A stretch of 36,790 nucleotides of DNA from Aquificales bacterium (lineage in GTDB: Bacteria; Aquificota; Aquificia; Aquificales; QOAS01), in the NCBI GenBank assembly GCA_027035985.1, contig JALVTI010000081.1, positions 1-36,790 of the forward strand. The letters are read 5' to 3'. The notes beneath the pieces were generated by a model. It searched no databases and had not been told where the DNA came from. It saw only the letters and a program-made list of their open reading frames with translations. The translations under genes were made by a program, and so were the position numbers. Below, in pieces: positions 7,707 through 27,978 of this stretch; the stretch's first letter is position 1, and each line of letters opens with the position of its first letter.

Positions 7707-8656
7707 ATGTATGAAAAATTCTTTAAAAGTATATTTATAACCTTAGTTACTTTAACTTTATTGGAAAATTATTATGTATTACCCTTTCTAAAAAAGCTTT
7801 ATCAGGAATTAGTAGAATTTTTAAAGTTTTTCCTTCAATGGAAAAGAAGATATCTCCTTTACTTCTCAATAATAATTTTAGCTATACATTTAGTATATAA
7901 ATAATTTTAGGTTGGCTTAACGAATCCATTTCTTTTGCCTTAACATTAGATATCCTTTGGGCTTTTATTTATGCCTGCTTCGGCGATTTGAATTCTGGTT
8001 TTTGGAAAATTGTAGCATCTAGTATAATTTTCTAGTATAATTTTTGCGCTTATTGCAGAATTTTCCTATTTTAAGAAAGAGAGATCCAAAGGTCTTGTCT
8101 TAAAAATTATGAGTTTAATCTATTTTGGAGCGTCCATTTTACTAATAGTAATTATATCTTTTTAGCCTACATAGCTCGTACTATGTTTTTTATAAGGATT
8201 TTCCTTTACAAAACACCATATATATGTCTATCTTTTCTATTTTAAAGAACTTTTTTAATTAATAGTAATCATCTGGTTTATGCTTATAAAACTGATAAAA
8301 AAGATATTCTTTTATTAGTAGGAGCGAAAATCTATAAATTCTCCAACATTGCTAAATATTTAAGTAAAGAAAACAAAGAAGTACTATGTATGGCTTTAAA
8401 AACGAATTATCCTGAAGACTTTTATTGGATTATAGTTAAAGAAAGTTTTGAGAAAAAAACGTTTAAAAATACAAAAAATAAAAAATCTAATAATATGGGT
8501 AATAATACACTTTCTCCTAAACAACCAGTAGTTATTTATACAATACCTGTTTTCTTCTTACTTAGGATTTCATATCCCGTAGATTACATTACTAACTTTC
8601 AGCTTTCCCCACTAGATGAAAAAGTTTTACAAAAAATACACAAAACAACTTTATAG
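7707..8656 (+). pseudogene. Decayed multi-TM membrane protein gene, broken by three small indels
   Basis: Consecutive open segments in shifting frames: 7707-7898, ~7901-8031, 8032-8255, 8258-8656. Breaks fall at a TA-rich site, a 13 bp tandem duplication (8019-8031/8032-8044) and a T6 run (8251-8256). Confidence 0.65.
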
Positions 8657-8795
8657 AAAAAATAGCGGGCTAAAACCCCGTATCTATGATGTGGGAATAC
8701 AGCCTGTCCCGAAAGGGGTGAAAAATTGAAGTTCTGTTTTAAAATTTAAAGCTTAACATATCCGCTTATAGCGGGCGTAAATAACAACAATCAGC
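8653..8795 (+). repeat. Structured repeat element, copy B (inverted homolog of 628-765)
   Basis: GGGCTAAAACCCCGTATCTATGATGTGGG...CCCGAAAGGG...AAAGCTTAACATATCCGCTTATAGCGGGCGTAAATAACAACAAT. Confidence 0.8.
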
Positions 8796-10651: not shown

Positions 10652-10870
10652 AGGTATCTAAATTTTGTTTAACCTTACGGCGGTCGACATTTGAACGGTA
10701 TTTCCCTCTTATGGAAAGTCAAGCATATCTTCCATTCCTGCAAAAGTTTTGAATTTTTCCAACACTTTTAAAGTGAAAGGTGAAATTTTATGAACTTTAT
10801 AAGGAAAAGTGTTTGCTCGGACTTTCATAGGTTTTAGGGGTTTAGGAAACAAAATTAGGTGAAATTTTGT

Positions 10871-11684
10871 GTTAATCCCTTATAGGGACATAACAACTGC
10901 AAACCCCTATTTTAAGACTTATCTACGAAAGGGAGTTTCAATCCCTTATAGAGACATAACAACGCAAATTCAGACCTGCCTTTCATCACTTGGATTATGT
11001 TTCAATCCCTTATAGGGACATAAAAACACTTTTGCCCGTTTTGACTGCGGGATACCTTCAAGGGGTTTCAATCCCTTATAGGGACATAAAAACGGAATTA
11101 TCACAATTTTTGAAAAAGGTAAGGAAGATTTGTTTCAATCCCTTATAGGGACATAAAAACTCAAATAAATTCTCGGGCGTGGAAAAGATTGTTGATGTTT
11201 CAATCCCTTATAGGGACATAAAAACTATTTTTCAAGACAAAAAATAGAAGAAGTATAATGGGTTTCAATCCCTTATAGGGACATAAAAACGCGACAACAG
11301 ATATATGAACAACTGAAACAACAGTTGTTTCAATCCCTTATAGGGACATAAAAACCCTTATCTATAGCCTCACTTAGATGGTTTAAAATTAGCGAGTTTC
11401 AATCCCTTATAGGGACATAAAAACAATTTGAGGCAGGAGTTGAGGGAATGGAGGAATAAGTTTCAATCCCTTATAGGGACATAAAAACATTGGAATATGT
11501 TTTTCCAGAAGTTAAAGGCACATAAGTTTCAATCCCTTATAGGGACATAAAAACGCTTAAAACTCGGTATATGTTCCAATACAAATTTTGGTTTCAATCC
11601 CTTATAGGGACATAAAAACATTTTTCCGAAAGTTATACCTACGACTACATAACTTGTTTCAATCCCTTATAGGGACATAAAAAC
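10871..11684 (-). CRISPR. CRISPR array 1: 13 repeats of 29 nt, 12 spacers of 35-40 nt, transcribed on the minus strand
   Basis: + strand repeat GTTTCAATCCCTTATAGGGACATAAAAAC. Starts: 10871 (degenerate), 10935, 10999, 11065, 11132, 11197, 11262, 11327, 11396, 11460, 11526, 11591, 11656. Degenerate repeats at the left end and a leader on the right. Confidence 0.98.
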
Positions 11685-11945
11685 AAAGGTGAGCCCAACC
11701 TTATTAAGTTGTCAAGGAACCTAACCACTACTTGGGTTTAAAGAATATCAAACCAACCTTAAAAGGTCAAGCAAAAGTTGAACTTTTTGGTCAACCCTAA
11801 GTGGACATTAATTCCTTGGGGTGTGCCATTTTGTTGGAACTCTAAGCCAAAACGCAATCCTGCAAAGTATTTTTGTCAAGTTTCAATCCATTATTTGACA
11901 TAAAATCTTGAGTCTGACCTTGTAAAGGTTAATAAAATTTGCTTA
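11685..11945 (-). promoter_or_regulatory. CRISPR leader of array 1
   Basis: Inverted homolog of 27296-27553. Minus-strand TTGACC (11765-11770), 17 nt, TATTCT (11742-11747); CTCACCTTT abuts repeat 1. Confidence 0.9.
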
Positions 11946-27295: not shown

Positions 27296-27553
27296 ACAAA
27301 TTCCATTAACCTTTATAAGGTCAGACTCAAGATTTAATGACAAGTTATGGGTTGAAACTTGGCAAAAACCTTTTGCAGGATTGAGTTTTTCCTTAGAGTT
27401 CCAATAAAAGGTCACACCCTAAGAAATTAATGTCCACTTAGGGTTGACCGAAAAATTCAACTTTTGCTTGACTCCATTAGGTGGTTTTGGTATTCTTTAA
27501 ACCCAAGTAAAGGTTGGGTTCCTTGGCAACTTAATAACGGTAGACTCACCTTT
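27296..27553 (+). promoter_or_regulatory. CRISPR leader of array 2
   Basis: Inverted homolog of 11685-11945. TTGACT (27468-27473), 17 nt, TATTCT (27491-27496); CTCACCTTT abuts repeat 1. Confidence 0.9.
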
Positions 27554-27978
27554 GTTGTTATGTTCCTAGGAGGGATTGAAACTTGGATAGTCCTAACGGG
27601 ATTTTAGGTGAATTAGAAGTTGTTATGTTCCTAGGAGGGATTGAAACCCGCAATCTCTAACGAGGTTGCGAATTCCTCATATCGTTGTTATGTTCCTAGG
27701 AGGGATTGAAACAAGAGAATGGAAGCCTATCAAGAGCTTGCGGGGAATGTTGTTATGTTCCTAGGAGGGATTGAAACTATAATCCATATAATTTTCTTCG
27801 AATTCTGGGAAAAGTTGTTATGTCCCTAGAAGGGATTGAAACCTATAAGGATTGCGTCGACTTTGTATTCTTTGGCTTTTCGAACGTTGTTTTGTTCCTA
27901 TAAGGGATTGAAACATGGTCTTTTTGAGGAAACCGCACCTTTGGGTCATTGTTTTATGTCCCTATAAGGGAAAAAAAC
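27554..27978 (+). CRISPR. CRISPR array 2: 7 repeats of 29 nt, 6 spacers, transcribed on the plus strand
   Basis: Repeat GTTGTTATGTTCCTAGGAGGGATTGAAAC. Starts: 27554, 27619, 27684, 27749, 27814, 27886, 27950. The last three are variant/degenerate. Confidence 0.97.

Follow-up and report, generated by a model that had tools for sequence, protein, structure and literature searches.

A putatively repeat-derived box in the distal block of type I-B CRISPR leaders from an Aquificales bacterium and its relatives

In type I-F CRISPR-Cas systems, motifs of the leader are similar to the inverted repeats found within the I-F repeat itself. These inverted-repeat motifs of the leader are contacted by Cas2 (PMC12259127). 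In the type I-A system of Sulfolobus islandicus, a leader-distal motif is bound by Csa3a and its mutation lowers spacer acquisition, according to the available text of that report (PMC9456107). The available part of a study on Sulfolobus solfataricus indicates that the distal portions of a long leader are important for specific integration at repeat 1 in vitro (PMC5815122). How new spacers reach repeat 1 in type I systems with long leaders and no IHF site is poorly understood. Here, we describe a repeat-like box that lies far from repeat 1 in a family of Aquificales leaders.

The window, meaning the whole stretch of 36,790 nucleotides that was analysed (contig C81 of genome G000, a bacterium of hot vents), carries two CRISPR arrays that run in opposite directions (Table 1). 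The tag that ends the transcribed repeat and the decayed repeats at the far end place the leaders from 11685 upwards and from 27553 downwards. Each array is directly abutted at repeat 1 by a conserved A+T-rich leader, with decayed repeats at its opposite end. Genes for Cas3, Cas4, Cas1b, Cas2, Cas6, Cas8b/Csh1, Cas7/Csh2 and Cas5b were found beside one leader, and the system is type I-B. The first-pass annotation had reported a repeat-like box in each leader at a distance of 195 bp from repeat 1, and both boxes and both intervals (11685-11879; 27359-27553) were recovered. Since leader 2 is an inverted paralogue of leader 1, with 85% identity across 286 nt, the shared spacing is inherited and counts as one fact rather than two. 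Box 1 lies about 110 bp upstream of the -35 hexamer of a promoter-like site, which places it outside an array transcript starting from that site; one such site was found for array 1 against 0.7 expected. An Rfam search of the window gave no match, and no similar DNA was found in plasmids. Matches in a scan of viral contigs were scattered and were taken as chance. The window also holds an inverted intergenic repeat pair (627-761 and 8646-8791; 55 nt 87% and 82 nt 79% complementary) that is unrelated to the arrays.

Table 1. Coordinates of the arrays, leaders and leader elements in the window.
Feature	Coordinates	Strand	Basis and remarks
CRISPR array 1	10869..11684	-	13 repeats GTTTCAATCCCTTATAGGGACATAAAAAC; decayed repeats at far end; crRNA strand minus (tag ATTGAAAC)
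Array 1 leader	11685..11929	-	245 bp conserved; column identity in 24 aligned leaders drops sharply at 11930
Leader-proximal motif TGAGCCCAACCTTATTAAG	11690..11708	.	Partner of the motif after box 1
Array 1 promoter-like site	11742..11770	-	TTGACC, 17 nt, TATTCT; consensus match only
Conserved block GCAAARNNTTTTTGNCAA adjoining box 1	11862..11879	.	In this genome confined to leaders
Repeat-like box of leader 1	11880..11907	-	Repeat resemblance tests (single-leader and profile)
Copy TGAGTCTGACCTTGTAAAGGT of leader-proximal motif directly after box 1	11909..11929	.	Closes the conserved leader
CRISPR array 2	27554..27978	+	Repeats GTTTCAATCCCTCCTAGGAACATAACAAC on minus strand; crRNA strand plus; last repeat decayed
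Array 2 leader	27309..27553	+	Homology to leader 1
Repeat-like box of leader 2	27331..27358	+	16/29 to own repeat; alone not significant
Copy of leader-proximal motif after box 2	27309..27329	.	Alignment to leader 1 family and collinear junction test

Leaders of this type are numerous. About 13 occur in this genome on separate contigs, at least nine in the sister species G003 and two more in a co-assembled relative, and three were found in the more distant congener G002. Alignment of 24 leaders, 11 of which come from the two further assemblies of the sister species and the co-assembled relative, showed a box in every one (24/24), at a distance from repeat 1 of about 195 bp. The box is carried by all complete leaders examined from the two sister species. 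Several of the loci are orthologous between species by their flanking genes, so the box was present before the two sister species diverged. The box also predates the spread of the leaders, and to this extent the earlier proposal is supported. An apparent tandem leader on contig C136 (L053) was left out, since it borders a stretch of exactly 100 N that is probably a gap in the assembly. Two contigs filed under a Methanocaldococcaceae archaeon (L087, L090) bear these Aquificales leaders and are probably mis-binned.

One part of the original description has to be corrected. The box was thought to sit on the far side of the leader, giving the order repeat, leader, array. Mean column identity across the 24 leaders is 0.90 in the box and 0.95 in the next 22 bp, and then falls to 0.58 over 23 bp and 0.43 beyond. 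Because conservation runs to 11929 and then collapses, the leader measures 245 bp, continuing 22 bp past box 1, and the box belongs to its distal block. Its recurrence in all leaders examined from the two sister species makes the box a real part of the leader.

The resemblance of the box to the repeat was evaluated in single leaders and in the family as a whole. When each leader was shuffled by dinucleotides, box 1 clearly exceeded the null (score 32, null mean 14.2, p=0.0003), whereas box 2 did not (score 15, p=0.29). The boxes match their own array repeats at 23/29 (box 1) and 16/29 (box 2) positions and so are not identical to a genuine repeat. When the repeat was run against a profile of the 24 leaders, the peak fell exactly at position 196, with a score of 5.0 compared with about -13 at the next unrelated place (p=0.002 against shuffled repeats). 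A replication on 22 of the 24 leaders, which omitted the two window leaders that had drawn attention to the box, still peaked at position 196 (3.1; next about -13; p=0.005). As the leaders are related, this result does not amount to 22 independent confirmations. In 20 of the 24 leaders the box is the most repeat-like 28-mer. The repeat resemblance first reported for both boxes accordingly holds for box 1 alone and for the leader family, and not for box 2 taken singly.

The resemblance continues beyond the box. Leaders read TGAGTCCAACCTTATTAAG after repeat 1 and TGAGTCTGACCTTATAAAG after the box, and, with the window leaders excluded, the opening 27 bases of the leader find their best match at positions 225-245, immediately behind the box (p=0.0015). 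In a joint test that required the box and its flank to lie on one diagonal, the collinear match was attained by 0/600 shuffles. In sequence, the distal leader end with its box is a degenerate version of the repeat-leader junction. The end of the conserved unit coincides exactly with the end of this junction copy in every leader. Since the likeness runs past the repeat and into the leader start, a repeat origin of the box is favoured, though not proven.

Based on these observations, our leading reading, to which we give a probability of roughly 0.45, is that the box is a repeat-derived and retained leader-distal element of this type I-B system that would aid spacer integration. We picture it as a putative docking or organising site. 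A repeat and the start of its leader would have been duplicated upstream before the leaders spread, and the distal block may have been kept for the help that it gives to spacer integration at repeat 1. It could be bound by Cas1-Cas2 (with Cas4), or by a partner protein for which the repeat-leader junction is a second site, and DNA bending would bring this second contact to repeat 1. A role in spacer acquisition is the most likely one for the block and is suggested by the distal motifs of Sulfolobus, as given in the available text of PMC9456107 and PMC5815122, and by the motifs contacted by Cas2 in type I-F (PMC12259127). A reading in which two versions of the repeat-leader junction bracket the leader, the distal one acting as a second integrase dock and looping pairing the two so that repeat 1 is marked, seems to us quite unlikely.

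The 24 leaders of this clade contain no perfect IHF consensus; one-mismatch sites occur only in part of the leaders, and an IHF site was rejected as the meaning of the box. Leaders of the f3 relatives (e.g. L126, L129, L150) present 23 perfect IHF sites in 27 leaders versus 1 expected, mostly about 141 bp from repeat 1. One HU-family gene is present in the window's genus, versus 3 to 5 in most f2 and f3 genomes. Together, the absence of a perfect site and the single HU-family gene mean that a different architecture factor would be needed.

A neutral fossil is an unlikely explanation. Here the distal junction would be the remnant of leaders and arrays once arranged in tandem, carried along as the leaders multiplied and now decaying without a role. 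The junction resemblance of box and flank is what such a history would leave. The boxes of the three G002 leaders all fit the G000-type repeat (17-19/29) better than G002's own repeats (13-16/29), as expected of a relic; it also follows that any role can do without a match to the resident repeat. The likeness to the repeat is much greater in box 1 than in the other boxes, and random mixing of other leaders' bases rarely attained the score of box 1 (P 0 to 0.01), so that mosaic chance alone was rejected as its source; box 1 nonetheless shares with G002 four of the five bases at which it departs from the clade consensus. Lone decayed repeats also occur 230-259 bp upstream of repeat 1 in G016, G022, G008 and G040. 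Further, the box differs at 13.7% of sites at orthologous loci, near the value for the rest of the leader, and its conservation between clades (61%) is about the leader average.

Against decay, columns that are at least 95% identical make up 68% of the box and 73% of the post-box segment, compared with 51% of the whole leader. The block next to the box (11865-11879) is 93% conserved to G002, which makes it the best conserved leader part between clades, and GCAAARNNTTTTTGNCAA occurs in leaders and nowhere else in 1.42 Mb of genome. The exact stop of the conserved unit after the junction copy also argues against a fossil. Orthologous leaders of G000 and G003 (e.g. L055, L091) are 83-89% identical, versus 89-98% for the flank at 100-600 bp, and in two ortholog pairs the first 100 bp of flank are less identical. 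Since the leaders vary faster than the DNA around them, selection probably maintains the columns that stay fixed. Orthologous leaders are about as divergent as leaders at different loci, and variable columns are near linkage equilibrium. This low identity is unexplained; ectopic exchange and fast saturating mutation are candidates. The suggestion that the box is a conserved functional element thus finds support in its constrained columns within the family and none in its average divergence at orthologous loci and between clades. The G002 pattern and this average divergence are best fitted by a relic, or by a site whose reader ignores the resident repeat. Even if the box were only a relic, it would still bear witness to an earlier state in which leaders and arrays stood in tandem.

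Coincidence is also doubtful as an explanation. The distal block would then be an ordinary A+T-rich leader motif, perhaps the site of a DNA-bending protein, that resembles the repeat of this clade by chance and does so most in leader 1. Of eight leaders tested singly, box 1 alone was significant, g0C97 was borderline (p=0.0497), and the six non-window leaders gave p values of 0.05 to 0.5. An unrelated, non-homologous 28-mer in one G002 leader reached p=0.003, and single-leader p values of this size are therefore unsafe. The G002 box has lost TTTCAATCC, whereas the G002 repeats retain TTTCAAT. The corresponding region of the f3 leaders has no clear repeat resemblance in an order-wide alignment that is loose in the distal half, on which no fine claims were based. 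Chance would nevertheless have to account for a profile peak that holds without the two window leaders and for a flank match that is collinear with the box.

A role as an ectopic repeat from which a crRNA-like guide RNA is made, CreA-like or regulating the cas genes, would suit the orientation of the box, which is that of the array, the would-be seed beside it in the leader's most conserved part between clades, and the degenerate ectopic repeats known from the available text of PMC8501985 and PMC9458426, but it is very improbable given that the hairpin is absent, that neither a second repeat nor a toxin gene was seen alongside, that the adjoining block offers no target elsewhere in the genome and that no promoter-like site was found upstream of the box. 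Box RNAs fold at -0.8 and -0.6 kcal/mol, versus -8.2 and -3.7 for the repeats. Lacking the repeat hairpin and lying upstream of the array promoter, the box would not be read as a repeat. There is one box per leader, and flanks differ between leader copies.

The putatively repeat-derived distal block, present in about 24 leaders, narrows the region to be mutated to a precise 50 bp. Its likeness to the repeat-leader junction suggests a candidate protein for binding.

Several known elements invite comparison. Like the box, CreTA and other ectopic degenerate repeats are degenerate repeats outside an array in type I systems, as far as the available text of PMC8501985 and PMC9458426 describes them; they differ from the box, which has no toxin gene, second repeat or hairpin. 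Elsewhere, in f3 relatives, a lone degenerate repeat lies between cas3 and the array leader (L169:1291-1320, L168:2053-2082, L167:2274-2303), immediately followed by a Shine-Dalgarno site with a hydrophobic mini-ORF of 20 aa (MDHETYTLILIILLLKLVRE, MDQEVYTLLLLILLVRLLRE); in G040 this mini-ORF is interrupted. Similar DNA occurs in four genomes and guide matches are weak; as a CreTA-like element, this arrangement is a lead. G016 carries a cas-adjacent array that has a different distal leader half; a lone near-intact repeat with 3 mismatches (L166:1777-1806) lies upstream of repeat 1 of this array, at a distance of 230 bp.

The type I-F leader shares with our proposal the reading of leader motifs by the integrase (PMC12259127), a contact that is putative here and drawn by analogy. 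The I-F leader is bent by IHF, while the present system belongs to another subtype, with a single HU-family gene and no perfect IHF consensus in the 24 leaders. The S. solfataricus system is an archaeal type I-A system for which the available text of PMC5815122 reports no repeat-like box, whereas the type I-B leaders described here have one. The Csa3a motif of S. islandicus is, like the box, conserved at a long distance from the repeat and accompanies a leader-proximal site; it belongs to type I-A, and the available text of PMC9456107 does not present it as repeat-like, whereas the box belongs to type I-B. Distal adaptation motifs are thus already known elsewhere, in the available text of PMC9456107 and PMC5815122, and by analogy the box, fixed at about 195 bp from repeat 1 in 24 leaders and adjoined by a block confined to leaders, may be a leader-distal motif of the same adaptation type.
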